From Verrucomicrobiaceae bacterium (lineage in GTDB: Bacteria; Verrucomicrobiota; Verrucomicrobiia; Verrucomicrobiales; V1-33): DNA of 40,647 nt. The DNA lies in the NCBI GenBank assembly GCA_027483175.1, contig JAIXVE010000311.1, positions 1-40,647 on the forward strand. Reading direction: 5' to 3'. Of this stretch, positions 5,679-38,257 are shown piece by piece. Within the stretch, counting starts at the first letter, position 1. Each line of letters starts with the position of its first letter. Under the pieces are notes generated by a model. That model saw nothing but the letters and a program-made list of their open reading frames with translations. It made no database searches and was not told the DNA's origin. Position numbers and translations under genes: made by a program.

Positions 5679-5682
5679 TCTC

Positions 5683-7647
5683 TCACGGTGTCTCCGCAGG
5701 CACCGGCACCGGCGCACTGCTCCGCTTCGCCTCCGCCATGCAGTAGTTGATCTTCGCCTGCAGTTCCATCCTGTCTAACGACTCCCGAGGATACCGGTGC
5801 ATCGCCGCCACAAAGTGAGGCAGCGCTTCCGCCGGCCGCTTCGTGAACACAAGGTGGTCGCCATACTTGTGGTGCACTTCCCGCGACCCATTCCCCCAGC
5901 GCAGCGCCGTCTCAAACCACCGCCCCGCTTCCTCATACCGCTGCAGCGCATCGCACGACCTCCCCAGCCACATCGCCATGTACGGATGCGGTGGATAAAG
6001 CCGGATGCCCTGCTCGAAATGCTCGATCGCCTTCTCCACATACTGACGGCTGATCGCCGGCATCTCGTCCGCCGCCTTCAGATCCGTCATCCCCCAATAG
6101 AAGTAAATATTCGGATCCTCAGGGTTCGCCTCCGCCGCCTTCGCAAATCCCGCCGCCGCCTGCAGATAACCCCCAAGGCCATCCGCACGCGAGAACACAT
6201 TCACCGACCGCCGGAAATGATAGTCGCCCACCGCCCGGTGCGGCGCAGACACCAGCAGCATCAGCGCCACCGCCGCCGTCCCTAGCAGCGCCAACCCACC
6301 CGCCGCCCGCTGCCCGCGTTCGCCAGCCGCGCCCGACTGCCGTTCATCAGGTTCCCCCGGATTCGCCAGAATCCCCAGCAGCATCGCCGCCGTCACCACA
6401 TTCACTCCCACGTGCATCTGAAAATCCCCCGCACAGTGCACCGCAAACGCACACAATCCCGCCAGCGCCCCCACCACCAGCGACCCGCGGTAATCCGGAA
6501 ACAACCCGCGGTGCATCCGCTCATGCCCGGTCTCCCCTAGCAGAAAACTCAGCGCGTTCCACGCATGCGCCAGCAGCATCACCACCACCAGCACCAGCCC
6601 GATCATCCCGTAATCCGCCAGCACCTGCAGCCAGTCATTGTGCGCAAACACCGCGTCAATCTCCGTGTCGCTCCAGAAAACCCAGTTCGTCTTCAAGTCC
6701 CGGAAGTACCGCTCATAATACTCATACGACCGCGCCCCGGTCCCCGTGATCGGACTCAACTGCCATTGCTCGATCGCCCGTTCCCACATCCCCCCGCGCC
6801 CATTCAGATTCTCAAACACCCGGCCCTCGCCGAACTTCGCCTCCAGCACCCGCAGCGCCACCACGCCGCCACCCGCTCCCAGCAGCAGCAACCCCGTCAG
6901 CACCGCCATGCCCGCCCGACTGTTCGTCCGCCGCCCCGTCGACCGCCCCGCCCGCAGCACAAACAACATCCCCGCCAGCGCCACCACACCCACCCCGAAC
7001 GCCAGCCCGCCACGGCTCGTCGACATCACCACACACGTCACCGCCGCCGCAAACACGATCCAGCACACCATCCGCACAAAACTGTGCACCCGGGAAAAAC
7101 ACGCGAGCGCCAGCAGCGGAAACGCCGCCAGTTCCATGAACCCGCACAGGTGATTCGAATTCGGAAACAACCCGCCGAACACCGCATCCTGCACCGGCCG
7201 CCGCTGCCCGATGAACCACAGCGGATTCGCCGACGCATGCCCCGCCCACTGATACAACCCCAGCCCGAGATTCAGCATGATCAAGGCCCCCCACACGCTC
7301 ACCACCGAAAACCGCTGCCACGGCCGATCAAACCGCACCGCCATCAGATAATACGCCACCGCCCCGGTCCCCGCAAAATACACGTCCTCCAGCGCCAGCG
7401 CCCGAACCCCGTGCGTCAGCGCCCGAAACCCGATCCACCCCGCAAACACCAGCATCGCCCCCGCAGGCACCGTCGCCAGTCGCCCCCGAATCCCCCAACC
7501 CGCCGTCGCCACCACCAAGACCGCCGACGCCCAGATCAGCGGCGCTCCCAGCCACATCGGCGCCATCACCGTCCAGGTGCCGAACACCCCGGTCAGCAGC
7601 ACCCCGGCAAGAAAAAGAAAGAAGGCAATGGATTCAAATGCACGCAT
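5683..7647 (-). CDS. O-antigen ligase/polymerase-like membrane protein with C-terminal TPRs
   Basis: The protein has 654 residues. The start at 7647 (MRAFESIAFFLFLAG) begins directly with a membrane segment; the longer frame adds 19 unlikely residues. About ten or more hydrophobic segments fill residues 5-470. The Wzy_C/WaaL-like core includes STSRGGLAFG, GRGGMWERAIEQW, GTGARSYEYY and AHNDWLQVLADYG, the last being a typical periplasmic-loop motif of O-antigen ligases. After the final membrane span, residues about 510-640 contain TPR units (for example NPEDPNIYFYWGMTDL and AGRWFETALRWG). Such proteins ligate or polymerise glycans on lipid carriers at the periplasmic face of the inner membrane. 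No glycosyltransferase genes lie nearby, so it is an orphan here. It converges tail to tail with the hydantoinase gene, 4 bases apart. Confidence 0.82.
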   Translation of the reverse strand: MRAFESIAFFLFLAGVLLTGVFGTWTVMAPMWLGAPLIWASAVLVVATAGWGIRGRLATVPAGAMLVFAGWIGFRALTHGVRALALEDVYFAGTGAVAYYLMAVRFDRPWQRFSVVSVWGALIMLNLGLGLYQWAGHASANPLWFIGQRRPVQDAVFGGLFPNSNHLCGFMELAAFPLLALACFSRVHSFVRMVCWIVFAAAVTCVVMSTSRGGLAFGVGVVALAGMLFVLRAGRSTGRRTNSRAGMAVLTGLLLLGAGGGVVALRVLEAKFGEGRVFENLNGRGGMWERAIEQWQLSPITGTGARSYEYYERYFRDLKTNWVFWSDTEIDAVFAHNDWLQVLADYGMIGLVLVVVMLLAHAWNALSFLLGETGHERMHRGLFPDYRGSLVVGALAGLCAFAVHCAGDFQMHVGVNVVTAAMLLGILANPGEPDERQSGAAGERGQRAAGGLALLGTAAVALMLLVSAPHRAVGDYHFRRSVNVFSRADGLGGYLQAAAGFAKAAEANPEDPNIYFYWGMTDLKAADEMPAISRQYVEKAIEHFEQGIRLYPPHPYMAMWLGRSCDALQRYEEAGRWFETALRWGNGSREVHHKYGDHLVFTKRPAEALPHFVAAMHRYPRESLDRMELQAKINYCMAEAKRSSAPVPVPAETP

Positions 7648-23582: not shown

Positions 23583-26500
23583 ATGAATCGCAACCTGAGT
23601 CTTATTTCCTTCCTGCTGCTGACAGCCGCTATGGTCTGGCGGTATTGGCCGGGTAGTTCCACTGAACCTTCGGGGCGACCGCCGTCCGGTGTGGCGCGGG
23701 CTTCGACCGAGGCTGCCGCGGCTGAGGAATTGCCGCCATGCTGCCGGGAGGCTGCGGAGGCAGAGAAGGCGGCGGAATCCAAGGCGGGAGCGGAAGCGGT
23801 GGCGCTGGATCCGGATGGTCCGCTCCCGCAGAACGTGCTTTGGGAAAAGGTGGAGGCACCCGCGCCCATGGCGGCCTTCCGCCAGTGGGCGAAGCATTAC
23901 GTGGCCGCCCCGTCGGCCGACATGGTCGCAGAAGGGGTGAAGCTCGCCACCGATCGCCGCGCGGCGATGGTCGATCTGATTGAGCAGAATCCGGAGAAGG
24001 CCCTTGAGAATGGTGTGCCCGTGTCCGTGCGCCGGGCCTTGCCTTCCGAGGTTCTCAGCCTCCTTGAAGAAAAGGTCGATGGCGTCGGCGATCTGGTGGC
24101 GACGGCCTATCACTATCCGGACCAGCGGGTTCCGGCCGGGAAGCGGTTGGTGGAACGCTCGGTCGAAATGGAAGACGGGCGCAGTTTCGAGGGCTTTGTG
24201 TACGGAAACCGCGAGTACCAGCCGTCGCGTGAAGCGATTCCGGTACACGGCATTTCCATCGATGGCAAGATGGCCCTCAGCCAGTGGCCCGGGCGCGTGC
24301 TGGAACCCGTGGAGCTAGCCGAAGCGCGGCAGGCGGTCGCCGAGGAACCGGTCTGCCCGGTTTCGGAAACCCCGATTGCCGCGACGGGAACCGCCACCGG
24401 TGTGGTGGTCGGAAAGAAGTTTGAATTCTACTGCGGTCCCCGCCACGCTCAGGGGTCGTTGCAGCAAAGAGCGGCCGGGGAAGCGATCCGTCCGCCGGGG
24501 CTCGGCGTCAGTGCCATCGTGCAGGCGGCGTCCAGTGGTGAAGGGACGCCAGGTGCTCCTTTTGCCGGTCAGGGCGAGGCATCATGGACCACGGGGACAA
24601 AGCGCATCATGATGGCGCGGATCAAATTCAGCGATGGGATGGACTATCAGAACCTGTCTGCTAGCGACTGCGGCGCCATTGTCAGCGGCATCAGCGATGC
24701 TTTCTACTCGTGGTCTTTTGGGCGGCTCATCGTCCGTGGTGTCGGCACAGACGGTTCTTCGATCAGCCCGGTGCTGACCATGAAGAAGACGGCCGACAAG
24801 TATACGAACATGGGAGATGTTTGGAAGGAAGTGGCGGCGGAACTCAAGCGCCGCGGAATCGGCTCCGGATTCGATTACCTCATGGTGATGGCCGGCAATG
24901 CGCCATTCCCGGATGCCGATGAAGACGACGGCATCGTCACGTGGGGCGGGATGGCAGTCATCGGCTCTGGTCAAGCCGTCATCCGCAACAATGGAACCGA
25001 CTGGACCGACGAAGACCGCATCGCGAGCGGCATCGGCATCGGCCTTCACGAGCTCGGCCACAATCTTGGTCTCTATCATGCCTCCAACTTCGATAGCTCT
25101 TCCAGCGGTGGCATCTTCGCTCCCGGGGGGGGCCTTGAATACGGAGACCGCTACGACCGGATGGGAAGCGGCGGTCTGGATTTCAATGCCCGCTACAAGC
25201 AGTGGCTCGGATGGATGGAGCTGGGAAGCATCCCCCTGGCGAACACCGCAGGCAGCTACACGATCAACGAATTTGACCAGGACCTGAACAGCGGCACCCG
25301 AGGGCTGCAGGTCATGGCCGGAAAGTACAGTCTGCTGAATACCTTTCACTTGTTCGCCGAATACCGCATCCGTGGGGTGGAACCGTCCACGGACGATCTG
25401 CCGTACGTCCCGTACAACGATACCCTGCTGGCATACGGTGCGCAGATCCGTCTGGGCAATCCATTCTCGCCGAAGACATGGCTCCTTGATGCCACGCCGG
25501 AGACAGCGAATGACGAGGCTGTGGATCCAGTGACGGAGAAAGCCTACCGCGAAGGCAATCTTGATAGTCCGCTGCTCCCCGGCCGAACGCTGGAGTTCAA
25601 GCGCGATGGCATCACGACGTATGTCACCAACAGCGAGGCTGATCCGGTGACCGGTCAGCTTAAGCTCGAGGTGCAGTTCGGTCCGGTTCCTGGCAACAAG
25701 CCGCCGGTCGGCAGCATCAAGGCGAACACTCCAGGCAGTCTGGTTTCAGTCGACCAGACCGTGCTGTTCACGGCCGATGTCACTGATCCCGAAGATACTG
25801 AGTTTGCCTGTTACTGGACGGTTCCCTCATTCGATGCCAGCCCAGTGAGGCCGGCGATTTTCCCGAATGAGCGGACCATTGCGGTGAAGTTCCCCGCCCA
25901 GGGTATCTGGCGGGTGAATTGCAAGGTTTCCGACATGCATGGCGGAACCACCGACCTTTTCATTCAGGTGATGGTTGGGGGCAATGAGGCCCCGTCGATC
26001 TCGGCCATCAGCGACCGCGTCCTCGATGAGGATACCAGTCACGCCGTGCACTTCACCGTGAATGATCCGATTGCCCCGCCGGAGTCTCTGACGGTGTCTG
26101 CGGAAAGTACGAATCCGGATCTTTTCCCGGCTGGATCATTCGCCTTCAGCGGAACTGGAGCCAACCGCATGCTGGTCCTGACTCCGGCACCCAACCGTCA
26201 TGGCAATGCCCGGATTGCGGTTTCAGTGTTCGACGGTGGCCTGACGGAGGTGGAACAGTTTGATGTGATTGTCCGTCCGGTCACTCCGGGAGTGATTCTC
26301 AGTGCCGCGGGCAGCGATGGCTGGCGTTACTGGGCGGAGACGGCGGCCCCGCCTGCGGGTTGGTTCGCCCCGGGATTCAGCGACGGGGCATGGACCATGG
26401 ACCGGGCGCGCTTTGTGAATCCTGCACCGTCACCGAATTTCCTCGACTGGACCATCCTCCCGGGAAGGCCCACGAGGTTCACCACTTATTATCGCCGCAC

Positions 26501-28721
26501 CGTCAATGTGCCGGCAATCCTCGACGGAGCGCCGATGGTCCGCGTGCTGTGCGACGACGGAGCGGTCATTTACGTCAACGGAACGGAGATCCACCGCCAC
26601 AACATGCCGGAAGGACCGATTGATCACGGCACCAAAGCGCTGACGGCGATTGAAGGGGCGCTTGAGGGCAAATGGTTCACCGTGCCAGTGAGTGCGGCTA
26701 ACTTGATCCTCGGCGGCGTCAACTCCATCGCGGTAGAGGTGCACGATGCCGGTGCCCTCCGCGGGTCGGGCGATATCGATTTCGATCTCGAGTTCAGCAC
26801 GCGCCCGGCACCGATTGTCAGCAACCTGCCAAACAGGATGAGCCTTGAGGACGAAGTAGCCGGGCCATACAGCTTCACCGCTACGGACGGGGAGTCGCCT
26901 CCGGGGCCGCTCTCGATCACTGGCTTCTCATCGGATCAGTCGATCGTGCGCAACAACAGGATCACTTTCACATACAATGCGGCGACCGGGACGCGGACGG
27001 TCACCTGTGTGCCCCAGCCCGACGCCACTGGTGTCACGATCATTACTGTTCGCGTCAGTGATGGAGTGGCGGCGACATGGCGCAGTTTTGCGCTGACAAT
27101 TTCCCCGGCGATTGATCTGCCGGAGATGATGCCGCTGGCTGATGTGACCACGACGATGAACGAGGCGGTGTCTGATCTGATCATTAAGGTCGGTGACCGG
27201 GACCTTGATTCGGCGCTGCTCGAGGTGACGGCTTCCAGCCGCGGCCTTCTGTCGTTCCGGAGCATTCAGGTGCTGCCGGGGCCGACGCCTGACACCCGGC
27301 GTCTACGGATTGTTCCGACGCCGGGAGTGGCGGCCCAGAGCACTGTGAATGTCAGTGTCAGTGACGGTACCCACACAGTTTCGCGGTCGTTCAATCTCAG
27401 GGTGACGGCACCTATGGCGACGAACAGCGTGGATGTCGGGCTGATTCGGAGCCGGACGGATCCATGGCGCGTGCTGGAACGCGATCTTCCGGAGAAGGAT
27501 GGGTTGCCGCTGGATTTCACGGCGGTCGATTTCGACGACAGCGCATGGACTCTCCTGACAACACCGTGCAGCTTCGGTGAACGGGACGCGGCGGCCAATC
27601 TCTCGCCGACTGCCTATCGCATGACGACGTATTTCCGGCGATCCTTCAATGTGCCGGATCCTGCGGTGGTGGGCGGATTGCAGATGCGCCTCCAGCGGGA
27701 CGACGGTGCGGTAGTTTACTTGAACGGAAGCCTTGTCTGGTCCAGCAACATGCCGGAACGGTTCGATGCGCAGACGCCCGCGAGTGCTGCGATCGAAGGC
27801 AGCGACGAGGCGGAGTGGCACTTCATGGAACTGCCATCGGGCCTGCTGTTGCCCGGCAAGAATGTGGTCGCCGTCGAACTCCACCAGAGCGACAAGCCGA
27901 CGCCTGCGGAGCCGGGAGATCTGCGCTTTGATCTGGAATTGTCGGGCGTGGCCGCGCCGCCTCCGCCGCAGGATGTGCTCATCGCCGCGGGGGATTCGTG
28001 GGCTTACTGGGATGGCGACAGCAGCACGGATGTCAGGGAAGCATGGACGAAGACCAACTTTGTCGATTCGTCATGGAAGCAGGGGCTCGCCCGTTACGGT
28101 TATGGAGTTGACCGGCCGGCGACTGGCCTCAATGCCGGGACCAGCGGCGATCCATCGGTGGCGAATCCATCGGTCGTGTTCCGCAAGTGGTTCGACATCG
28201 CCGATCCGGCAGCCTACGGCGTGCTGCATTGCTTCCTGCAGGTGGACGACGGGGCGGCGGTCTTCATCAACGGCAATCGGGTCTTCGAACACAACCTCGC
28301 GAAGGGTGCGCGCACCGACAGCCCTGCGCTCAGCGAGATTCCGGCGTCGGATCAGGACCAGTGGCGGCATTTCGTGATCGATTCGAGCCGCCTGATCCCG
28401 GGAAGAAATCTCATCGCGGTCTCGGTGCATCAGTATTCGCCATTGGTGGCCCGCAGCGATCTTCAGTTTGATCTCCAGCTCACCGCCGACCTCAAGACCG
28501 AGCCGCAACTCTTTCTGCGCCCGGTCGGTGAGAACATGGAACTGAGCTGGTCCGGGGCCTTCAACGGCTGGAAACTGATGACGAGCACCGACCTTGAACG
28601 GTGGACGGCGGCCGATGCCGACCCGGTGCTTCAGGATGGCTGGCTCTATGTGGTCCGGCCCGCCATCACTCGCGAGTTTTTCAGACTGCAGCCGGCGGCA
28701 GACGATCGCGCTGGGCCATGA
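23583..28721 (+). CDS. giant secreted metzincin-type zinc metalloprotease with jelly-roll and Ig/cadherin-like domains
   Basis: The protein has 1712 residues. An N-terminal hydrophobic segment (MNRNLSLISFLLLTAAMVW) acts as signal or anchor. Residues to about 330 form a propeptide-like region. The catalytic domain has HELGHNLGLYH with zinc ligands His489, His493 and His499, and a Met-turn in YDRMGSG (Met527), the metzincin layout seen in gametolysin-like (M11) enzymes. Cadherin/Ig-like domains follow at about 705-900 and 1080-1280. Three copies of a carbohydrate-binding-like jelly-roll unit, each with DDGA(V/A)V(Y/F)(V/L/I)NG, lie at about 905-1075, 1285-1456 and 1464-1636. The end (ELSWSGAFNGWKLMTSTDLERW to EFFRL) resembles the C-terminal module of many exported Verrucomicrobia proteins. 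It probably degrades extracellular protein or glycoprotein. The copy-C hairpin follows 59 bases downstream. Confidence 0.85.
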   Translation: MNRNLSLISFLLLTAAMVWRYWPGSSTEPSGRPPSGVARASTEAAAAEELPPCCREAAEAEKAAESKAGAEAVALDPDGPLPQNVLWEKVEAPAPMAAFRQWAKHYVAAPSADMVAEGVKLATDRRAAMVDLIEQNPEKALENGVPVSVRRALPSEVLSLLEEKVDGVGDLVATAYHYPDQRVPAGKRLVERSVEMEDGRSFEGFVYGNREYQPSREAIPVHGISIDGKMALSQWPGRVLEPVELAEARQAVAEEPVCPVSETPIAATGTATGVVVGKKFEFYCGPRHAQGSLQQRAAGEAIRPPGLGVSAIVQAASSGEGTPGAPFAGQGEASWTTGTKRIMMARIKFSDGMDYQNLSASDCGAIVSGISDAFYSWSFGRLIVRGVGTDGSSISPVLTMKKTADKYTNMGDVWKEVAAELKRRGIGSGFDYLMVMAGNAPFPDADEDDGIVTWGGMAVIGSGQAVIRNNGTDWTDEDRIASGIGIGLHELGHNLGLYHASNFDSSSSGGIFAPGGGLEYGDRYDRMGSGGLDFNARYKQWLGWMELGSIPLANTAGSYTINEFDQDLNSGTRGLQVMAGKYSLLNTFHLFAEYRIRGVEPSTDDLPYVPYNDTLLAYGAQIRLGNPFSPKTWLLDATPETANDEAVDPVTEKAYREGNLDSPLLPGRTLEFKRDGITTYVTNSEADPVTGQLKLEVQFGPVPGNKPPVGSIKANTPGSLVSVDQTVLFTADVTDPEDTEFACYWTVPSFDASPVRPAIFPNERTIAVKFPAQGIWRVNCKVSDMHGGTTDLFIQVMVGGNEAPSISAISDRVLDEDTSHAVHFTVNDPIAPPESLTVSAESTNPDLFPAGSFAFSGTGANRMLVLTPAPNRHGNARIAVSVFDGGLTEVEQFDVIVRPVTPGVILSAAGSDGWRYWAETAAPPAGWFAPGFSDGAWTMDRARFVNPAPSPNFLDWTILPGRPTRFTTYYRRTVNVPAILDGAPMVRVLCDDGAVIYVNGTEIHRHNMPEGPIDHGTKALTAIEGALEGKWFTVPVSAANLILGGVNSIAVEVHDAGALRGSGDIDFDLEFSTRPAPIVSNLPNRMSLEDEVAGPYSFTATDGESPPGPLSITGFSSDQSIVRNNRITFTYNAATGTRTVTCVPQPDATGVTIITVRVSDGVAATWRSFALTISPAIDLPEMMPLADVTTTMNEAVSDLIIKVGDRDLDSALLEVTASSRGLLSFRSIQVLPGPTPDTRRLRIVPTPGVAAQSTVNVSVSDGTHTVSRSFNLRVTAPMATNSVDVGLIRSRTDPWRVLERDLPEKDGLPLDFTAVDFDDSAWTLLTTPCSFGERDAAANLSPTAYRMTTYFRRSFNVPDPAVVGGLQMRLQRDDGAVVYLNGSLVWSSNMPERFDAQTPASAAIEGSDEAEWHFMELPSGLLLPGKNVVAVELHQSDKPTPAEPGDLRFDLELSGVAAPPPPQDVLIAAGDSWAYWDGDSSTDVREAWTKTNFVDSSWKQGLARYGYGVDRPATGLNAGTSGDPSVANPSVVFRKWFDIADPAAYGVLHCFLQVDDGAAVFINGNRVFEHNLAKGARTDSPALSEIPASDQDQWRHFVIDSSRLIPGRNLIAVSVHQYSPLVARSDLQFDLQLTADLKTEPQLFLRPVGENMELSWSGAFNGWKLMTSTDLERWTAADADPVLQDGWLYVVRPAITREFFRLQPAADDRAGP

Positions 28722-28816: not shown

Positions 28817-28851
28817 TGTGGGGATGTGAAAATTTCCGCGGAGAGAATGTC
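28817..28851 (+). promoter_or_regulatory. putative ECF-type promoter of sigma-factor gene 1
   Basis: This 35-base stretch aligns without gaps to 32347-32381 in front of the second sigma gene, with 25 identical positions. It contains GAAAATTT, a CGCGGA block and TGTC at 28848-28851, about 16 bases after the GAAA, which suits an ECF -35 (GGAA-like) and -10 (CGTC-like) pair. It begins 68 bases before the start codon. Autoregulation by one or both encoded sigma factors is inferred. Confidence 0.55.
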
Positions 28852-28884
28852 CAAAGTCAGAGGCCTGCGGCATAGAATGAATTG

Positions 28885-29430
28885 ATGGATCCGGCGAACG
28901 GCGAGCCAACTTCTCTGAGCGCGACTGATGAACAGTTCATGCGGCTGTTTCTCGAGTCCGAGCGCGAGCTGTTGCGTTATGTGATGGTGCTGATCCCGAA
29001 TGTTCACGATGCCCGGGATGTGCTGCAGGAAGCGGCGGTGGCGTTGTGGCGGGCGGCGGAGAAGTACGATCCGGCGCGGCCGTTTGTCCCTTGGGCCTGC
29101 CGGTTTGTGCTCAATGAGGCGCGGATGTTTCTGCGCAGTGCGGCGCGGCGTCGGCGGTTCATGGAAGAGGATGTGGCTGTGCTGCTGGAATCCCAGCGGC
29201 TGGAGATGGCTGAGGGGCTCAAGGCGCGGCGCGAGCATCTGCGGGAATGCCTGAGGGAGTTGCCGGAGCAGCACCGGGACCTGGTTCGTGGGTACTATTT
29301 TGACGATGAAACGGTCGAGTCACTCGCCCGACGTCAGGGTCGCGGACCTGAGGCCGTCTACAAGGCCCTGCAGCGCATCCGGCAGACCCTGCACCACTGC
29401 ATGCAGCGCAAACAACAAGCCAATTCCTGA
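28885..29430 (+). CDS. ECF-like sigma-70 factor, Rhodopirellula/Verrucomicrobium type (module 1)
   Basis: The protein has 181 residues. ATG 28885 was chosen over the TTG directly before it. Region 2 is visible as LLRYVMVLIPNVHDARDVLQ and AEKYDPARPFVPWACRF (about residues 30-75), the latter a hallmark of this sigma subfamily. Region 4 is LRELPEQHRDLVRGYYF followed by SLARRQGRGPEAVYKALQRIRQTLHHC, the helix-turn-helix that reads the -35 element. It directs RNA polymerase to a small regulon and is presumably held by the membrane protein encoded three bases downstream. Its promoter closely resembles that of the second sigma gene at 32414. Confidence 0.92.
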   Translation: MDPANGEPTSLSATDEQFMRLFLESERELLRYVMVLIPNVHDARDVLQEAAVALWRAAEKYDPARPFVPWACRFVLNEARMFLRSAARRRRFMEEDVAVLLESQRLEMAEGLKARREHLRECLRELPEQHRDLVRGYYFDDETVESLARRQGRGPEAVYKALQRIRQTLHHCMQRKQQANS

Positions 29431-29433
29431 CTG

Positions 29434-30423
29434 ATGTCCCATTGTGATGATGAACTGACTGCACTCATCCATGCCTTCCTGGACGGCGCGGCCAGCGATG
29501 CCGACGTCACGCGTCTCAATGACCGGCTTCGCGCGGACCCGGAGGCACGGACCTTGTATCTGGAGCTAGCGGATCTGCACGCCAGTCTGGCGGTGGACGA
29601 GGCTCACTGGCTGGCCGCTGCACCGGCAGTGGAGTTGCCGGCGGCATCTTCCGGCCGCAGGCGGCCACAGTGGCGGCCGCTTGGAGCGGCGGCTGCCGGG
29701 TTGGTGATCGGCGTGGGCACCGCGACGCTGGTCTGGGGATTCGCTGCGGAGCGACCGGTTTCCACAGCGTCCGCCGTGGTGGCGCTGGCCGACGGCGGAT
29801 TTGAAATGAACGCCGGTCCGGTGGCCGCAGGGTTTCCGGCGCAGGCATCGGTCTGGAGCGGCGATGCGCTCGAAATCATCGGCACGGCGAAGAACGCACA
29901 AGGCACGATCATCAAGCCATCTGCGGGCCGTCACATGCTGCGATTCGTGAGAACGGCGAACGATGCCAGCGATCCCGGCGGGCGGGCGATTTCGTGCGAT
30001 GTCTTCCAGATCGTTGATTTGCGGCCTCTGCGCGAATCGATTCCGTCCGGCAGCGATGCCGTGCTGGAGTTAGCCGTCGATGTGCTGGACGCCCGCCTGT
30101 TCCCGAAAGTGACTGCGACATTTCTATGTAAGGTGTACACGTTTCAGGGTGACTCCGCATCGTTGCGGGACGTCTGGCCGGCCCCAGCGGACACGGCGCT
30201 TAGTCTTGGCACCACCCTGCGAAGCAGCGCGGGCGGACTTCCGGACGCATGGAAGACGATGACAACCCGCTGCCTGCTGTCGGCCGAGGCTGATTTTGCG
30301 GTCATTCATCTCGGAGCCCGCCGCGATGGCCCGATGGAATCGTTCGATGCCCTCTACGCCGACAACGTTCGTCTCACCCTGAAAACCCAGCCTCGCCTGC
30401 CGGTCCGCAGCCCGTCCCGCTGA
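29434..30423 (+). CDS. membrane anti-sigma factor (FecR-like layout, module 1)
   Basis: The protein has 329 residues and starts three bases after the sigma gene. Residues 1 to about 60 form a helical cytoplasmic domain (ELTALIHAFLDGAASDADV, then LNDRLRADPEARTLYLELADLHASL), the anti-sigma part typical of this sigma subfamily. It has no His-x3-Cys-x2-Cys zinc motif. One transmembrane helix lies near residues 80-105 (LGAAAAGLVIGVGTATLVWGF). The remaining roughly 220 residues are extracytoplasmic and beta-rich and could sense a ligand or envelope state. The layout matches the partner of the second sigma factor. It is followed 20 bases later by the SGNH esterase gene, so a three-gene operon is likely. 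Confidence 0.8.
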   Translation: MSHCDDELTALIHAFLDGAASDADVTRLNDRLRADPEARTLYLELADLHASLAVDEAHWLAAAPAVELPAASSGRRRPQWRPLGAAAAGLVIGVGTATLVWGFAAERPVSTASAVVALADGGFEMNAGPVAAGFPAQASVWSGDALEIIGTAKNAQGTIIKPSAGRHMLRFVRTANDASDPGGRAISCDVFQIVDLRPLRESIPSGSDAVLELAVDVLDARLFPKVTATFLCKVYTFQGDSASLRDVWPAPADTALSLGTTLRSSAGGLPDAWKTMTTRCLLSAEADFAVIHLGARRDGPMESFDALYADNVRLTLKTQPRLPVRSPSR

Positions 30424-30443
30424 CCATTTTCGCGAATCTATCC

Positions 30444-32342
30444 ATGAAGACAAGACTCACCGTCACTCTCCTAGCCATCTGGCTGTCGCTTTCCGCGCAG
30501 GCCGTGGATTATCCGTACGAGCCTTACAACGAGGGGAAAATGGACCCTCAGAAGACAGGCTGGCCACTCACTGCTGAAGAACGCGCATGGGTTCTCAAAG
30601 CGGAGCATGATCGCCGCCCGGGCCGTGAATCGAGCAAGCATCTGCCGCCATTCTGGCCGGTGGTTCCGAGTGCCGGATTCTGGGGCGGGACGTCATGGCT
30701 CGATACGCACGAGAAGCTCGTTGATTATGTGAGGGCGAATCCGGGTCCGTGCGATGTGCTGCTGGTGGGCGACAGCATCACCCAGCAATGGGGCAGCCCG
30801 CTCGACACGGGCGTGCTCAATGCCGCATGGCAGAAGCATTTCGCCAGCTACCGGACGATCAACCTCGGAATCGGTGGCGACAAGTCGCAGAATGTTCTGT
30901 GGCGTCTCGATCACGGCGGCGTGGAGGGATTGCAGCCGAAGGTGGTGGTCGTGATGATCGGCAATAACAACATGTTCTTCGTGCCGGAGACCGGTGTGGA
31001 GGCGGCTGCCAAGGGCGTGCAGATGTGTGTGACGAACCTCCGCGAAAGATTCCCCGACGCGGAAATCATCGCGGCGAAGATTCTTCCGTGCCATGCGCCG
31101 GGCGTCGATTTTTACGAGAACATCAGGAAGACGAATGCCGCAATCGAGACGCTCAAGCTCGGGAGCGACCCGAAGGTGCATGTGCTGGATCTATGGGGTG
31201 ATTTCACGAATGCCGATGGCAGCATCCGGAAGCCGCTCTTCGGATCGGACAGCATTCACCTCTCGCTTGATGGCTACGCCGTTTATGCCGCGCGATTGAA
31301 GCCGCTGCTCGATCAGTTTCTCGGCGGGAAAGGACTCGGGGGCAAAGTCAACCTACCCGCGAAGCGCACGAGCGCTGCTGCGCCGGTCCCGGCATCCGCG
31401 CCGGTGCCGACGGACACATCCGTTCCTGATGCTGTTAGCGATGCGGTGCTCAAGCCGACCGCAAGGACGGCCGATGGCAAAGCGCTCGTCTATCCCTATG
31501 CGCCGTACAACGAGGGCCGCATGGACCCTCAGCTTGTCGGATGGCCGTTGACGGCTGCCGAGACCGAGTGGGTCACGAAAGGCGAGTTTCTCCGGAAGCC
31601 CGGGCACGAGGTACAGAAGCATCTTCCTGACATGTGGTTTGTGACGCCCACCGCCGGTCACTGGCCCGCGAAGGACGGCAGTACGGGGAACGATTGGCTG
31701 AAGCATCACGGCACGTGCATCGCGAAGGTGAAGGCCGCTGGCGGCGTCGACATTGCGCTGATCGGAGACAGCATCACGCAGGGCTGGGGTGGAGGATGGG
31801 ACGGAGCGCCGTTCAATCCCGCATGGCAGAAGCACTTTGGCGAGCAGCAGACCGTGAACCTCGGCATCGGCGGCGATCGCATGGAGCACATCCTCTGGCG
31901 GCTCGACCACGGGGCGCTTGATGGCGCCTCACCGAAGGTCATCGTGCTGATGATCGGTGTCAACAATGCCAACGGAGTGCAGGCCAACGGCGTTCCCGTG
32001 GCAGCTGCCGCCCATGGCATCAAACTCTGCATCGAGAACCTCCGGCTCCGCTGCCCGCAGTCGAAGATCGTGCTCGTGAAGATCCTTCCCGCATTCGATC
32101 CAGGAAAGGACGTCGGCAGACAAGTCGTCCGGATCAACGGGTTGATCGATGCGCTGAAGGTTGACGCCGATCCCAATGTCCGAGTTCTGGACCTCTGGAA
32201 GGACTTTACGAATCCCGAAGGGACGCTGAAGACCGAGCTGTATGCGGACAAGCACCTGCATCTCGGACCGGAAGGCTACGCGGTGTACGCGTCGCGTTTG
32301 AAGGAGGTATTGCAGCCGCTGCTGGAGAAGGCAGGCCGGTGA
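30444..32342 (+). CDS. exported protein with two tandem SGNH/GDSL hydrolase domains
   Basis: The protein has 632 residues with a signal peptide (MKTRLTVTLLAIWLSLSAQA). Two homologous halves each start with a (Y/A)PYNEG(K/R)MDPQ(K/L)xGWPLTA segment. A GDS nucleophile block (Ser111 and Ser443), NLGIGGD, an Asn-containing MIG(N/V)NN block and a C-terminal Asp/His block ending in GYAVYA follow. They resemble the PAF-acetylhydrolase-like SGNH branch, which removes acetyl or acyl groups from sugars or lipids. In half one the last block is the normal Asp269-x-x-His272. In half two it is Asp602-x-x-x-His606, with another His at 604. A linker rich in Pro, Ala and Val joins the halves at about residues 305-350. 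It closes the first sigma/anti-sigma module. Confidence 0.88.
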   Translation: MKTRLTVTLLAIWLSLSAQAVDYPYEPYNEGKMDPQKTGWPLTAEERAWVLKAEHDRRPGRESSKHLPPFWPVVPSAGFWGGTSWLDTHEKLVDYVRANPGPCDVLLVGDSITQQWGSPLDTGVLNAAWQKHFASYRTINLGIGGDKSQNVLWRLDHGGVEGLQPKVVVVMIGNNNMFFVPETGVEAAAKGVQMCVTNLRERFPDAEIIAAKILPCHAPGVDFYENIRKTNAAIETLKLGSDPKVHVLDLWGDFTNADGSIRKPLFGSDSIHLSLDGYAVYAARLKPLLDQFLGGKGLGGKVNLPAKRTSAAAPVPASAPVPTDTSVPDAVSDAVLKPTARTADGKALVYPYAPYNEGRMDPQLVGWPLTAAETEWVTKGEFLRKPGHEVQKHLPDMWFVTPTAGHWPAKDGSTGNDWLKHHGTCIAKVKAAGGVDIALIGDSITQGWGGGWDGAPFNPAWQKHFGEQQTVNLGIGGDRMEHILWRLDHGALDGASPKVIVLMIGVNNANGVQANGVPVAAAAHGIKLCIENLRLRCPQSKIVLVKILPAFDPGKDVGRQVVRINGLIDALKVDADPNVRVLDLWKDFTNPEGTLKTELYADKHLHLGPEGYAVYASRLKEVLQPLLEKAGR

Positions 32343-32346
32343 TGGC

Positions 32347-32381
32347 TGTGGGGGGGCGGAAATTTTCGCGGAAACGGCGTC
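32347..32381 (+). promoter_or_regulatory. putative ECF-type promoter of sigma-factor gene 2
   Basis: This element aligns without gaps to 28817-28851 (25 of 35 positions identical). It shows GGAAATTTT from 32358, then CGCGGA, and CGTC at 32378-32381. The 16 bases between GGAA and CGTC fit the usual ECF -35/-10 spacing. It begins 67 bases before the start codon, against 68 for the first sigma gene. Confidence 0.58.
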
Positions 32382-32413
32382 ATATCCGGGCTGGTCCGGC
32401 TTAAGCATGGTTG

Positions 32414-32944
32414 ATGTCCGATGTTCCGAAGGTTCCGATCGAATTTGTGCAGCGGCTGACCGCGGCACAGAGCGCGCTGTATGCGTTCATCTGCGGGCTC
32501 ATGGGTGGACTGGAGCAGGCCGCGGACGTGCTTCAGGAAACCAACCTAGTGCTGTGGAATCGCGCGGGCGAATACGACCCGGAGCGTCCGTTCATGCCGT
32601 GGGCCTATACGCTAGCCCGGTGGCAGGTGATGGCGTGGCGTAAGACGCAGCAGCGTTCCCGTCTGGTGTTAGATGACGACCTTGTCGCGAAGGTAGCGAC
32701 AGAAATGGAATCCGGGGCGGGCGCGGCCGAAGCGGAATTGCGCGCGCTCGAGCGCTGCCTCGCCGCCTTGCCGGGAAGGCAGCGGGAATTGATCGCGGCG
32801 CGCTATGAACGAGGCGAGACGGTTCGCGCCATGGCCTCACGGCTGGGCCAGCCGGAGAATGCGCTCGCGGCGGTGTTCTACCGCATCCGGCGCGCGCTGC
32901 ACCATTGTATCACGACTAGCATGGCGACGGAGGAAACCGCATGA
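32414..32944 (+). CDS. ECF-like sigma-70 factor, Rhodopirellula/Verrucomicrobium type (module 2)
   Basis: The protein has 176 residues. ATG 32414 follows an in-frame TTG, exactly as in the first sigma gene. Region 2 is LYAFICGLMGGLEQAADVLQ and AGEYDPERPFMPWAYTLARW; region 4 is LAALPGRQRELIAARYERG followed by RAMASRLGQPENALAAVFYRIRRALHHC. It is clearly a paralogue of the module-1 factor. The stop overlaps the anti-sigma start by four bases (ATGA), so the two are made in a fixed ratio. It is transcribed from an element resembling the first module's promoter, so cross-regulation between the two modules is possible. Confidence 0.92.
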   Translation: MSDVPKVPIEFVQRLTAAQSALYAFICGLMGGLEQAADVLQETNLVLWNRAGEYDPERPFMPWAYTLARWQVMAWRKTQQRSRLVLDDDLVAKVATEMESGAGAAEAELRALERCLAALPGRQRELIAARYERGETVRAMASRLGQPENALAAVFYRIRRALHHCITTSMATEETA

Positions 32945-33828
32945 GTGAGCAGATACCGGAGCTGGAGGCCCTGATCGATGGCGGCTTCGATGGGGATGCG
33001 GCCGCGGCATCCCGGCTGCGTGAGCGATTGCGCGACGACCCTGCGGCGATTGCCGAGTACGCGGCGCAGATGCGAATGCACGCATTGCTCACATGGAAAC
33101 ACGGCGGCGCGTCGGTCAAACCCGTGCGCCCGGCGGTGGCGGCGCGGCGCTGGATGGGAATTGCCGCGGCGGCGGCGGCGATCATCGGCCTTTTTGTAGT
33201 CATGATGCCCCGGTCTGCTCCGGCGGCGGCTGCCGCAGCGCTTGACCGCATGCTCGCAGTGGCCCGACGCGGCGGCGACCGGACGTATGTGTTTTCGGTC
33301 CTAGCGGGTTCGCGCGGCATCGTGGTGAAGGGTGGCTTAGTGTCATTTGTCGATGGAGCCAGGCTGCATCTGGGTCCTCGGGGCGAGTTTTTGTATGACA
33401 GTCCGCTGTCCGATGGCACGCGGCGGCTGACTGGGTCGGATGGGCGGAGTTCGTGGGAACAATGGGGAGATGGCGCGGCTCGAGTCAGCAGCGATCCGGG
33501 TTATTTCCGACATCACATTCCTGGCGAGCGGGAACACTTCACGCTGCTGGATCCTGCGGCGGGTCTAGCGCTGCTGCGGGATGGTTATGAAGTGACCCTT
33601 GATGAATCCGGCGGCAGCATTCAGCGGCTGACCGCGGTGAAACGCCGCCGGGAGTTCCGGGGGCCGCGCGAGGCACGCGTTGCGTTCGAGAAAGATTCCG
33701 GAACGATTGTGGAGATGGAGTTTGATGGCTTGCCGCAGGCGCGCGGCGGGCCCTCCGCGGTCCGACTAACGCTTGAGTCGCGGGAGCCGCATCCACCCGG
33801 ATTCTTCAGCCCGGAACATCATCACTGA
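32941..33828 (+). CDS. membrane anti-sigma factor (module 2)
   Basis: The protein has 295 residues. The start overlaps the sigma stop (ATGA). Residues 1 to about 60 are the helical cytoplasmic anti-sigma domain (LEALIDGGFDGDAAAASRLRERL, then LLTWKHGG), alignable with the module-1 protein. A single membrane span lies at about residues 70-92 (MGIAAAAAAIIGLFVVMMP). The outer part has a beta-rich domain (from about TYVFSVLAGSRGIVVKGG) and ends with Pro and three His residues. There is no zinc-binding anti-sigma motif. How the signal releases the sigma factor is unknown. The sulfatase gene starts 53 bases downstream and may belong to the same transcript. Confidence 0.8.
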   Translation: MSEQIPELEALIDGGFDGDAAAASRLRERLRDDPAAIAEYAAQMRMHALLTWKHGGASVKPVRPAVAARRWMGIAAAAAAIIGLFVVMMPRSAPAAAAAALDRMLAVARRGGDRTYVFSVLAGSRGIVVKGGLVSFVDGARLHLGPRGEFLYDSPLSDGTRRLTGSDGRSSWEQWGDGAARVSSDPGYFRHHIPGEREHFTLLDPAAGLALLRDGYEVTLDESGGSIQRLTAVKRRREFRGPREARVAFEKDSGTIVEMEFDGLPQARGGPSAVRLTLESREPHPPGFFSPEHHH

Positions 33829-33881
33829 GACCGCGCCGCCGATCTTAACTGTTTCCCGTCAATCAACCCGTCATCACTGTC

Positions 33882-35201
33882 ATGCACCTGTTCCGAACTC
33901 TGATTCTGCTGATCGCCTGTAATGCCCTGCCCGTCCGGGCGGAAGCCGCAGCACCACTCAACGTTGTGACCATCGTGGCCGATGATGTCGGATGGGGCGA
34001 CATGGGGTTTCACGGCTCGAAGATCCGGACGCCCAGCCTTGATCGGTTGGCAGCGGAAGGCGTGCGGCTGGATCGGTTCTATGTGAATCCCATCTGCAGT
34101 CTGACGCGCGCGGCGTTGATGACGGGACAGTTCACGAGGCGCACGGGCGTCAACAACCGGAGCGGCCTGCCGCTGGCTTACCGCACGCTGCCGCAGGATT
34201 TCCACGAGGCTGGATGGCAGACGTGGATGTGCGGCAAGTGGCACCTTGGCGGCACTTCGGACAACGCCTTCACCGGCCGCGAGTATCACCCTGACAAACG
34301 CGGGTTCGATCACTTCTACGGGCTGCTCGGCGGGGCCGTTGATTATTACGAGCACATCAATCATCAGACCGGAGAACTGGATTGGTGGCGCGACGGAGCG
34401 CCGGCGAAGGACGAAGGTTACTCGACCGATCTGCTTGCGGATGAAGCCATCAAACGTCTCAGGGGCCGTGACCGGGACAAGCCCTTCCTGCTGCATCTCG
34501 CTTTCAATGCGGCGCACGGACCGCTGAACCTGCCGCCCGGGAAGTCGGCGTCGCGCGGCGCGGCGACGTACGCAGCGGTGGTCGAGTCGATGGACGCCGC
34601 GATCGGGCGTATAATGACGGCCCTTGCGGAAGAGAAGCTAGCGGAATCGACCGTGGTGCTCTTCTTCTGCGACAACGGGGCGCAGGAAGGACGGGGCGGC
34701 AGCAATGCGCCGCTCCGCGGGGCGAAGGGCGGGGCCTACGAGGGAGGAGTCCGTTCGGCGGCGGTGGTCCGAGGGCCCGGATTGAAGGCCGGGACCGTAT
34801 CGCAGCAATGGATGTTCGCAGGCGATGTCTGGCCGACTCTTGCGGCGGCTGCGGGAGTGACTCCGAAACCCGCAAAGCCTTTCGACGGCGTCAATGTCTG
34901 GGCCGCCCTGACAAAAAGCGAAGTCATGCCGCGTCCAGGATTTGAAGTCGGTGCTCGGGATCTCGCGTGGCTTTCGTCGCCATGGAAACTCGTCCAGCAG
35001 GCGGACGGCACCCGCGAACTGTATGACCTGACCAAAGACCCGAGCGAAACGAAGAATCTTGCCGCGGAGAAGCAGGACATTGTGGCGAAACTCGCGGCCG
35101 AATGGGAGAAGACCATGGCTGGGGTGAAGGTCAGAGGCGGCGGCGGTCCTGGCAGACCGGGACCGGGCGGGAAGGGGAAGAGGCCGAAGGGCAATCCCTG
35201 A
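33882..35201 (+). CDS. exported formylglycine-type sulfatase with altered CxPxR motif
   Basis: The protein has 439 residues with a signal peptide (MHLFRTLILLIACNALPVRA). Sulfatase hallmarks are VADDVGWGDMGFHG (metal-binding Asp pair near residues 34-35), the active-site segment NPICSLTRAALMTG with Cys72, CGKWHLGG, and FFCDNGA with a downstream Lys in APLRGAKGGAYEGG. The canonical modification motif is Cys-x-Pro-x-Arg; here the third position is Leu74 (C-S-L-T-R), which could affect formylglycine formation. The length is usual for bacterial arylsulfatase-like enzymes. The tail is rich in Gly, Pro and Lys. It probably removes sulfate esters from glycans outside the cytoplasm. It follows the second sigma/anti-sigma pair. 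Confidence 0.9.
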   Translation: MHLFRTLILLIACNALPVRAEAAAPLNVVTIVADDVGWGDMGFHGSKIRTPSLDRLAAEGVRLDRFYVNPICSLTRAALMTGQFTRRTGVNNRSGLPLAYRTLPQDFHEAGWQTWMCGKWHLGGTSDNAFTGREYHPDKRGFDHFYGLLGGAVDYYEHINHQTGELDWWRDGAPAKDEGYSTDLLADEAIKRLRGRDRDKPFLLHLAFNAAHGPLNLPPGKSASRGAATYAAVVESMDAAIGRIMTALAEEKLAESTVVLFFCDNGAQEGRGGSNAPLRGAKGGAYEGGVRSAAVVRGPGLKAGTVSQQWMFAGDVWPTLAAAAGVTPKPAKPFDGVNVWAALTKSEVMPRPGFEVGARDLAWLSSPWKLVQQADGTRELYDLTKDPSETKNLAAEKQDIVAKLAAEWEKTMAGVKVRGGGGPGRPGPGGKGKRPKGNP

Positions 35202-35329: not shown

Positions 35330-38257
35330 ATGAATCCGTACCTTCCAGCCTTGCTCGCCTTTGCTGCCGTTTCGGTCGCGCCTGGTGCGGGCTTGTATCC
35401 GGACGAGGTCCTCAAGGACGGGCCGGTTGGGTATTATCGATTCGAAGCTGAGGAGACGGAAGGAAGGACGGTTTGCAATGCTGCTGACGCGGCGGTCCGA
35501 GGGGCCGACGGGGTGATTGGTCAGGGTGTGAGAATCGGGGCGGGCGGAGTTGTCGGGAAGGCGGCGTCGTTCGACGGGCATGGGGTCATGGAGATTCCGT
35601 CGGATCCCGCCTTCAATGCCGAGAACGTTTCGGTGGAGCTGTGGTTTCGGAGCACACAAGCGTTTGAGCGGCCCTACTGGCCTGGGAGTGCGTCGCTGGT
35701 TTCCAAGGTGACGCCTGGCAATGGTTCGGGCGACTGGTGCATTCTGGGCGGGAGTAAAGGCGGCGGGAGGAATGACGGGCAGATTCTGGCTGCGAGCGGT
35801 CCGAAAGGCGGAAACGATCACGTTCTCGAGTCGGCGACGGGCCTCAATGACGGGCAGTTTCATCATGTGGTCTGGACGCGCAGCGAGGATGGACAAAACC
35901 GGCTCTATGTGGATGGCATGCTCAAGGTTTCGCTGCGGGATGGCGGCGGGAAGATCGGCAATACGAGGGCCATCCAGATTGGCGGCGAGACAGTGGAGAC
36001 CGGGGGGAGTTTCTTTAAGGGAGAAATTGATGAGCTGGCCATCTATGCGGGCGTGCTTCCCGAGGATCGTGTGAAGGCGCATTTCGCTGCCGGCAAGGTT
36101 GATCCGCGCCTGCCGAAACCGGCAACCGCGGTAGTGGATTTTGTCAGGGACATCAAGCCGATCTTTCGGGACGCGTGCTTCAAGTGCCATGGTCCCGAAA
36201 AGGAGAAGGGTGGGCTTTCGCTCGTTGCTAAGGCCCGGGCCATGGAGGGGGGCGACACGGGCGCGGATATCCTTGCTGGAAACAGTGCGGCGAGCGCGCT
36301 GGTGCACCGAATTGCGGCGCTGGATGAGGATGCTGTTATGCCGCCAGAAGGCGAGCGGTTGAGCGCGACGCAGGTCGGGCTCGTTCGTGCGTGGATCGAT
36401 CAGGGCGCGGTCTGGCCTGCTGGTGCGGACGAGTTGGATCCGCGCCTTGCGAAAGTGGCGAGCCATTGGTCGTTCAAGCCGCTGAAGCGACCGCCGGTGC
36501 CGAAACGTGAGGATGCGTGGATCACCTCGCCAGTGGACGCCTTCGTTCTCGGGAAACTCGACGCCGCAAAGCTGAGTCCCGCTCCACCTGCGGACAAAGA
36601 GGCGCTGCTGCGGCGTGTCTCTTTTGACCTAGCCGGGCTGCCGCCGTCGCCGGAGGAGATCTCTGCGTTTGCCGCTGACACGAGCACGGATGCCTTTGCG
36701 ACGGTTGTGGATCGTCTGCTGGCGTCGACGGCGTATGGCGAGCGATGGGCGCGGCACTGGCTCGATGTCGTGCGTTATGCGGACTCCGGCGGTTATGAGA
36801 CGGACATTTTTTACGAGCAGGCTTGGCGCTTCCGGGATTACGTCATCCGGAGCTTCAACGTCGATAAGCCGTTTGACCGATTCCTGATGGAGCAGGTGGC
36901 GGGCGACGAAACTTGGCCCGGGCAGGCCGATATGCAGGACGCCGTGGCGGTGTGGACGCTGGGCGAATGGCAGAACGCGCTGGATGCCTTTCCTGACATG
37001 CTGGAGTACGTGCGGCGGACGGATCAGGTGAGCCTGCTCAGCGAGGCGGCGCTGGGACTCACGGTCGGTTGTGCGAACTGTCACAATCACAAGTTCGATC
37101 CGATTACGCAGCGCGATTATTTCGGGATGGAGGCGATCTTTGCGGCCAGTGAAACGTGGAACCGGAACACGGGTGAGAAGGCATGGGGCAAGGGTGAGCG
37201 GACGGCGTATCGGGCGGTGCGCCACGCGGAGAGACCTCTTGCGATTCATCTGCTGACGCGCGGTGAGTTGACCAAGCCGACGCGGCTCATTGCGCCCGCA
37301 CTGCCTGCGTTTCTGCCCGGGGGCGGTGCGCTGCCGGGCGGGTCGGGCGAAGCGAAACAGCGCCGAGCCTTGCTGGCGCGCTGGCTCGTATCGCCTGAGA
37401 ATCCCCTAACGGCGCGCGTCATCGCCAATCGGATCTGGCAGTGGCACTTCGGGCAGGCGATCGTGTCTACGCCGAACGATTTCGGCACACAGGGCGCACC
37501 ACCATCGCATCCGGAACTGCTCGACTGGCTCGCGTCCGAGTTGCGCGAGAATGGCTGGAGCATGAAGAGCCTGCATCGGCGGATTCTGCTGTCTTCCGCC
37601 TATCAGCAATCGGCGATTCGCGACCCGAGGGCCACCGAGGAGGATCCGCAGAATCGATGGCTGGCGGGGTTTCCCCGACGACGCCTTGAGGCAGAGGAAG
37701 TGTGGGATCACCTCCATGCGGCAGCCGGGACGCTTGATCTGAAGGGATTTGGACCGCCCTTTGTGCCCAAGCTTTCGCCTGAGGAACTGCAGGGAATGTA
37801 TGATCTCGAGAACAAGCCGGAACTGAAATGGCCTGTCACGCATGAGCAGGACCGCCGGGCGATTTACATTCTGAATCGCCGCTCGTTCCGGTTCCCTTTT
37901 TTTGAGGCGTTCGATCCGCCGAACACAGCGACAAGCTGTCCGGTCCGCCAGACGACCACGGTGCCCACACAAGCGCTCACGCTGTTGAACAACCGGATCG
38001 TCGGCGAACAGGCGCGAGCCATGGCGGGGCGGTTGACTCGCGAGGCGGGGAGCAGTGTGGTATCGTTTGTGAAGCGGGCGTGGCTGCTTGCCTACAGCCG
38101 CAATGCTAGCGAAAGCGAGTTGAAGCTCGCTGTACAGTTCATTAAGGAGGCAGAAGCCGCGCGCGCGAAGTCGGGAGCGACAGATGCTCACGCGGCTGCG
38201 CTGGTGGAGTTCTGCATAGGCATCATGAACACCACTGAATTCATCTACACCAACTGA
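35330..38257 (+). CDS. LamG - PSCyt1 - DUF1549 - DUF1553 exported cytochrome-like protein
   Basis: The protein has 975 residues. ATG 35330 starts a signal peptide (MNPYLPALLAFAAVSVAPGAG); a GTG at 35318 is also in frame. Residues about 20-245 are a LamG/concanavalin-like domain (YYRFEAEETEG, VSVELWFRS, LYVDGMLKVS). Next comes the Planctomycete cytochrome C domain with a CxxCH haem site at residues 283-287 (CFKCH). DUF1549 follows (HWSFKPLKRPPVP, RWARHWLDVVRYADSGGYE) with a second CxxCH at 581-585 (CANCHNHKFDP). The C-terminal DUF1553 has NPLTARVIANRIWQWHFG and LHRRILLSSAYQQS. The family is large in Planctomycetes and Verrucomicrobia, and its reaction is unknown; a redox role on carbohydrates is often suspected. 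Its stop overlaps the next start by one base. Confidence 0.93.
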   Translation: MNPYLPALLAFAAVSVAPGAGLYPDEVLKDGPVGYYRFEAEETEGRTVCNAADAAVRGADGVIGQGVRIGAGGVVGKAASFDGHGVMEIPSDPAFNAENVSVELWFRSTQAFERPYWPGSASLVSKVTPGNGSGDWCILGGSKGGGRNDGQILAASGPKGGNDHVLESATGLNDGQFHHVVWTRSEDGQNRLYVDGMLKVSLRDGGGKIGNTRAIQIGGETVETGGSFFKGEIDELAIYAGVLPEDRVKAHFAAGKVDPRLPKPATAVVDFVRDIKPIFRDACFKCHGPEKEKGGLSLVAKARAMEGGDTGADILAGNSAASALVHRIAALDEDAVMPPEGERLSATQVGLVRAWIDQGAVWPAGADELDPRLAKVASHWSFKPLKRPPVPKREDAWITSPVDAFVLGKLDAAKLSPAPPADKEALLRRVSFDLAGLPPSPEEISAFAADTSTDAFATVVDRLLASTAYGERWARHWLDVVRYADSGGYETDIFYEQAWRFRDYVIRSFNVDKPFDRFLMEQVAGDETWPGQADMQDAVAVWTLGEWQNALDAFPDMLEYVRRTDQVSLLSEAALGLTVGCANCHNHKFDPITQRDYFGMEAIFAASETWNRNTGEKAWGKGERTAYRAVRHAERPLAIHLLTRGELTKPTRLIAPALPAFLPGGGALPGGSGEAKQRRALLARWLVSPENPLTARVIANRIWQWHFGQAIVSTPNDFGTQGAPPSHPELLDWLASELRENGWSMKSLHRRILLSSAYQQSAIRDPRATEEDPQNRWLAGFPRRRLEAEEVWDHLHAAAGTLDLKGFGPPFVPKLSPEELQGMYDLENKPELKWPVTHEQDRRAIYILNRRSFRFPFFEAFDPPNTATSCPVRQTTTVPTQALTLLNNRIVGEQARAMAGRLTREAGSSVVSFVKRAWLLAYSRNASESELKLAVQFIKEAEAARAKSGATDAHAAALVEFCIGIMNTTEFIYTN

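Follow-up and report, generated by a model that had tools for sequence, protein, structure and literature searches.

We have analysed a window of 40,647 bp, one entire contig (G000:C35) of a verrucomicrobial draft genome, in which two neighbouring gene cassettes, A and B, occupy positions 28817-35201. Each encodes a sigma factor, an anti-sigma factor and an exported hydrolase. The best explanation of the data, which we hold with considerable confidence, is that A and B were assembled independently and lie side by side as self-contained cassettes for surface sensing, of the TIGR02989 extracytoplasmic function (ECF) type, with chimeric anti-sigma factors and promoter codes of their own. This reading draws on what could be compared at the sequence level, namely gene content, separate ancestry, orthologue-conserved promoters and chimeric genes. 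The cassettes comprise the following genes:

28885-29430, plus strand: sigma A (181 aa), ECF-type TIGR02989 (144.7 bits, cut-off 124.55).
29434-30423, plus strand: anti-sigma A (329 aa), with a three-helix N-terminal domain (aa 1-62), a span (~86-103) and a sensor resembling a carbohydrate-binding module (CBM) jelly roll (~115-319), as predicted by AlphaFold2 (AF2) and Foldseek.
30444-32342, plus strand: exported tandem SGNH/GDSL hydrolase (632 aa) of cassette A (PF13472, E 4e-52, two stretches).
32414-32944, plus strand: sigma B (176 aa), ECF-type TIGR02989 (158.7 bits, cut-off 124.55).
32941-33828, plus strand: anti-sigma B (295 aa), with a three-helix N-terminal domain (aa 5-53), a span (~69-88) and a LolA/RseB-like sensor (~92-295), as predicted by AF2 and Foldseek.
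33882-35201, plus strand: exported sulfatase (439 aa) of cassette B (PF00884, E 2e-51).

Both sigma factors scored above the curated TIGR02989 cut-off over the full profile length (regions 2-4). Together with the AF2 models and the PF13472 and PF00884 matches, this agreed with the first-pass annotation, which had described each unit as an exported hydrolase together with a sigma factor of the Rhodopirellula/Verrucomicrobium type and an anti-sigma factor with one membrane span; its view that hydrolase genes are plugged behind a regulator pair was also supported by the cassette arrangement. In cassette A, 3 bp separate the sigma and anti-sigma genes and 20 bp the anti-sigma and SGNH genes, while in cassette B the sigma and anti-sigma genes overlap by 4 bp and the sulfatase gene follows after 53 bp. 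Given these small gaps, each cassette is probably a single operon. The 71 bp between the SGNH stop codon and sigma B contain promoter B.

Neither anti-sigma open reading frame gave a Pfam or NCBIfam match at E ≤ 0.01. In their AF2 models (predicted local distance difference test, 81.7 for A and 79.5 for B), a bundle of helices at the N-terminus is followed by one span and then by a domain rich in beta structure. RsiW was the best relevant PDB sequence match for both N-termini, albeit a weak one (E 0.02-0.045); as regards class I anti-sigma factors (ASDI), each gene adjoins its sigma gene and has three predicted N-terminal helices, the likeness to RsiW being weak. For sensor A, Foldseek retrieved Fbs1, HpiC1, CBM22, CBM61, CBM27 and CBM16, with E values of 1e-6 to 1e-3 (Fbs1, CBM22, CBM16) and ~1e-3 (CBM61, CBM27), suggestive of a sugar-binding jelly roll. 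No CBM family was found for it by Pfam sequence search; by fold it would be a CBM-like beta jelly roll with putative carbohydrate binding. Sensor B matched the LolA-family structure 4mxt (E 1.2e-8), RseB (2v43, E 1.9e-6) and also LprG, with Foldseek E values of 1e-8 to 1e-5 overall, and gave no Pfam family of the RseB/LolA type at E ≤ 1. It is thus predicted to be a LolA-like half-barrel, a likeness of fold only. A search for a plasmid origin of anti-sigma A gave no match. Homologues of anti-sigma A with 31-38% identity were present in records titled Gemmataceae, Planctomyces and Planctomycetaceae (L376, L399 and L409).

The gene order of the two cassettes is alike, and the first-pass annotation had taken them for a duplicated signal-transduction cassette. 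Under that explanation, A and B would descend from one unit and keep a common promoter (GAAA-type -35, YGTC -10), with autoregulation and cross-talk between the sigma factors. The proteins argued against it: sigma A and sigma B share 30.6% identity, and in a 99-row sigma tree sigma A falls in a starred 31-row clade, with sigma B in a separate group that has its own orthologues. Moreover, the predicted folds of the two sensors are different and unrelated. The cassettes are evidently separate assemblies and not copies of each other.

The composition of the anti-sigma genes was revealed by comparison across the order, where homologues of anti-sigma A occur in 132 of 240 genomes. In most sensor-A homologues the sensor was 39-48% identical, with 23-30% identity in the accompanying sigma factor and 17-37% in the sigma-binding domain. 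Gene pairs whose sensors are at least 40% identical split sharply: sigma identity is 45% or more in 235 of them and below 32% in 165, which leaves 6 in the gap. The N-terminal domain followed the sigma factor, with a mean identity of 63% in the high-sigma-identity pairs vs 25% in the low ones. That the two are inherited together lends indirect support to a putative role of this domain in binding and inhibiting the cognate sigma factor. The clearest case was that of genomes G108 and G074, with 76% identity in the sensor, 22% in the sigma factor and 19% in the N-terminal sigma-binding domain; their DNA homology sets in near codon 85 of the anti-sigma gene, where the span is encoded, and is found again, at 81%, across the SGNH gene. 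The reverse combination was found in G029, where a sigma-A orthologue (47%) is followed by a matching N-terminal domain (E 9e-5) and an unrelated tail, and for cassette B in G026, where again the N-terminal domain is kept and the tail is unrelated. Sensor B (41%) and a sulfatase stand behind a 28% sigma in G229. A 58% sigma-B match with a 41% sensor occurs in G033, the sulfatase not being adjacent, and the 55-58% sigma-B matches of G033 and G122 have other genes directly downstream. In the sigma tree, partners of sensor A are spread over at least five branches and those of sensor B over four. From this distribution, the anti-sigma genes are evidently chimeric, the sigma-binding domain travelling with the sigma factor and the span and sensor travelling, often with the hydrolase, as the other half. 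Strong SGNH homologues were present in 44 genomes, and in 14 of these the gene lies next to a homologue of anti-sigma A (hand count from lists).

Unequal identities of this kind could also arise without any exchange, if the sigma factor and the N-terminal domain simply evolved faster than the sensor. Distant members have sigma identities close to the lowest in the family, a range in which rates can hardly be judged, and to that extent such an explanation is favoured. It is nevertheless highly improbable in view of the bimodal sigma identities (235, 6 and 165 pairs) and of the abrupt G108/G074 DNA junction. Extending the chimeric reading, a preferred recombination junction just before the span may operate across the Verrucomicrobiota and probably the Planctomycetes, joining many sensor and hydrolase halves to many halves made of a sigma factor and its binding domain. 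New insulated circuits with their own promoter code would then arise in one step. We see about even chances for this broader proposal.

The upstream regions of the two sigma genes carry the following elements:

28817-28847, plus strand: upstream block of promoter A, TGTGGGG..GAAAATTTCCGCGGA, common to B and possibly a distal A/T tract (25/35 identity with 32347).
28848-28854, plus strand: probable -35 of promoter A, TGTCCAA (26/30 sigma-A orthologues).
28868-28874, plus strand: probable -10 of promoter A, CGGCATA, 13 nt 3' of TGTCCAA (spacing found in most orthologues; putative role).
32347-32376, plus strand: upstream block of promoter B, TGTGGGG..GGAAATTTTCGCGGA, common to A (sequence comparison).
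32377-32383, plus strand: probable -35 of promoter B, GCGTCAT (CGTCA[TCG] in 8/8 orthologues).
32397-32403, plus strand: probable -10 of promoter B, CGGCTTA, 13 nt 3' of GCGTCAT (same spacing in all seven orthologues; putative role).

TGTCCAA was present upstream of 26 of the 30 sigma-A orthologues, the window's own included (0.2 expected), usually behind a T tract. In most of them a second element (CGTGGAC, CGGCATA, CGGCAGA or CCGGAAG-like) lies 13 bases further on, giving a TGTCCAA-N13-CGgcatA-like promoter. All eight sigma-B orthologues with at least 50% identity have CGTCA(T/C/G) upstream (0.9 expected), in CGTCA(T/C/G)-N13-CGGCTTA-like promoters, with CGGCTTA, GGGTTCA or CGTGGAC as second element. 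TGTCCAA was found in none of 30 sigma-B relatives and CGTCA[TCG] in one of 30 sigma-A orthologues. Expectation maximisation on 72 non-redundant regions upstream of sigma genes in the order yielded the de novo motif aaaTTTTtcGtcAAAa, with a log-likelihood of 293 vs 136-166 in shuffled sets, which indicates that the promoter element is a family trait. The first single-block and two-block motif models recovered this family motif and aligned A and B on the upstream A/T block, a placement that the orthologue sets overruled. Covariation between sigma residues and promoters pointed partly toward region 4.2 and was inseparable from relatedness. Sigma-B-like genes with 44-48% identity (L325, L330, L337 and L341) showed a third promoter type, AAATTTCCGCGAAAGAT...GGTAA, which resembles the upstream block shared by A and B.

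The simplest reading is that TGTC/CGTC probably forms the -35 core, with start sites near the ATG. The first-pass annotation had proposed a GAAA-type -35, CGCGGA and a YGTC -10, a parse that is probably shifted, as the pieces kept are TGTCCAA or GCGTCAT and the element 13 bases on. Absence of its element upstream of sigma orthologues had been named as a refuting result, and here the outcome was divided: the YGTC part was present, and the CGCGGA part was absent. Indeed, neither GAAA nor CGCGGA is kept beyond the genus, within which CGCGGA already varies (CTGCGGA, CCGTGGA). The earlier parse is possible since GGAAA-N16-CGTC at promoter B fits the general ECF consensus.

The 35-mers at 28817 and 32347, which begin 68 and 67 bases 5' of the ATGs, are identical at 25 of 35 positions. 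The ungapped match and its offsets had been noticed in the first pass and were confirmed as above chance. At least 25 matches were reached at any register by ~1% (5/490) of random 200-bp windows from the contig, and in matched register (±2) by 2 of 2414 other sigma-upstream pairs in the order; the latter figure argues that the likeness is not fortuitous. This identity in matched register, the fit of promoter B to the general ECF consensus and the similar gene order speak for a duplicated cassette with a common promoter and cross-talk. With the sigma factors and sensors so different, GAAA and CGCGGA missing in distant orthologues, and distinct YGTC elements kept together with a partner 13 nt downstream, we regard this model as distinctly unlikely.

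Alternatively, the shared block could be bound by another regulator, or by a third sigma factor, that co-controls both cassettes on top of their separate autoregulation. It is shared in register and sits 5' of both probable -35 elements, the TTYCGCGGAA of B is close to a palindrome, and the block persists in a natural deletion. The latter was found in G002, of the same genus (L091, G002:C3, about 5582-6002 of the reverse complement), which lacks sigma A and anti-sigma A; its promoter-A region is preserved through TGTCCAAAGTCAGGGGCCGGCGGTA, and the SGNH gene comes immediately after. The rest of this 75%-complete assembly yielded no sigma-A orthologue, and SGNH expression in G002 is either orphaned or under another regulator. 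The variation of CGCGGA inside the genus speaks against a third regulator, and the short pattern GAAANTTNCGCGGA gave 31 genome sites vs 14 for its reversed control, just a ~2-fold difference; co-control is thus unlikely. In the window, GAAANTTNCGCGGA occurred at 6 sites vs 4.9 expected (≤2 mismatches), and by itself it is not unusual. No clear regulon emerged from the genome scan with this pattern, the regulon scans being pattern searches only. The upstream block of A is not kept in distant sigma-A orthologues. Taken as 28817-28842 and 32347-32372, the block shared by A and B sits roughly one helical turn 5' of the position that the T tract occupies in other promoters of the family.

Returning to two separately assembled cassettes, their promoters also bear on regulation. 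Autoregulation, as the first-pass annotation had predicted, is likely from the orthologue-conserved promoters, each sigma gene keeping its own element upstream (26/30 for A, 8/8 for B). The full promoters A and B occur once each in the genome, and near-matches to them showed no excess over the reversed control in the genome pattern scan. The uniqueness of each full promoter suggests single-target cassettes. The possible cross-talk put forward earlier was not borne out: the codes differ, each is kept in its own orthologues and is rare or absent in the other set. Since A uses TGTCCAA and B uses GCGTCAT, the cassettes are probably insulated and would work side by side without interference. The mechanism that we infer, from autoregulation and the -35/-10 roles to ligands, proteolysis, sigma release and insulation, would run as follows. 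Each sigma factor would recognise the promoter of its own cassette, from which sigma, anti-sigma and exported hydrolase would be expressed as one operon, and the anti-sigma factor would tether the sigma factor at the membrane via its N-terminal domain. An envelope or glycan signal would act on the periplasmic sensor, a jelly roll beside an SGNH esterase in A and a LolA/RseB-like domain beside a sulfatase in B, and the freed sigma factor would raise sigma, anti-sigma and hydrolase together.

Several points weigh against this explanation. Sensor A is also found upstream of other exported proteins (DUF1552, PSD/PSCyt and F5/8C-kinase), so that its link to the hydrolase is preferential, not strict. 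Some joins of the sigma tree have long branches behind them. The proposed anti-sigma role stands on gene position, the predicted three-helix domain and the weak RsiW matches, and the whole-protein fold matches are modest (TM-scores of 0.3-0.4 relative to the query and about 0.5-0.6 relative to the target). Finally, the GGAAA-N16-CGTC of promoter B also suits a canonical ECF promoter, and the block shared upstream of A and B is left without a role.

Regarding the hydrolases, the second SGNH domain (31364-32251) is absent in G002 and G003, of the same genus, whose SGNH proteins have a single domain. Tandem forms occur in G087 and G068, which hold SGNH relatives that are 75-76% identical. The sulfatase (33882-35201) has the active-site stretch CSLTR, vs the usual CxPSR. 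Directly 3' of it, 35330-38254 encodes a PSCyt1/DUF1549/DUF1553 protein with a LamG domain, and such genes also trail related cassettes in G027 and G125. On the other side, the product of 23583-28721 (1712 aa) has repeats of the Big_9 type and matches metallopeptidases weakly, and a GC-rich terminator-like hairpin lies between its gene and promoter A.

Verrucomicrobial genomes can hold dozens of TIGR02989 sigma factors whose signals and targets are still to be assigned. With a promoter code specific to each lineage and a sensor half that can be exchanged, one could predict directly which promoter a given sigma factor reads and what class of ligand its circuit senses. Exchangeable halves also suggest how insulated signalling pairs may multiply without cross-talk, and a natural junction at the span would offer a ready design rule for laboratory chimeras. 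No description of the promoter code or of the exchange of anti-sigma halves was found in the literature searched; key ECF classification papers lay outside its scope, so the novelty of the code and of the exchange is not certain.

Autoregulation of ECF sigma factors with anti-sigma partners is general (PMC8103513). Neighbourhoods of sigma and PSD/PSCyt genes are known in Rhodopirellula, where the ECF sigma factor RB10049 of R. baltica occurs with RB10051 (PMC2754498). This system, compared here as an ECF sigma factor and not as a confirmed TIGR02989 member, similarly places the sigma gene beside exported presumed targets. The TIGR02989 (Sig-70_gvs1) sigma factors of Planctomycetes and Verrucomicrobia have PSCyt/PSD neighbours, and DUF1549/DUF1553 genes trail such cassettes here too, but cassettes A and B have an SGNH hydrolase and a sulfatase as their presumed targets. 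Cassette B recalls RpoE/RseA/RseB and AlgU/MucA/MucB in its RseA/MucA-like three-helix sigma-binding domain and span and in its LolA-fold sensor, as in RseB/MucB. It differs in having both in one polypeptide, without a separate RseB, and in its neighbouring target, a sulfatase. The SigI/RsgI systems of Clostridium thermocellum show autoregulation, -35-based specificity and limited cross-talk (PMC6056542), and RsgI is reported to be processed by RseP within the span (PMC12203970). They share with our cassettes many paralogous sigma/anti-sigma pairs, a substrate-sensing domain outside the cell that is carried by an anti-sigma factor with one span, and enzyme targets, whereas the sigma family and the anti-sigma N-terminus are different and the enzyme gene here is normally in the same operon. 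By analogy, cassettes A and B most likely work as SigI/RsgI circuits do, as autoregulated ECF systems.

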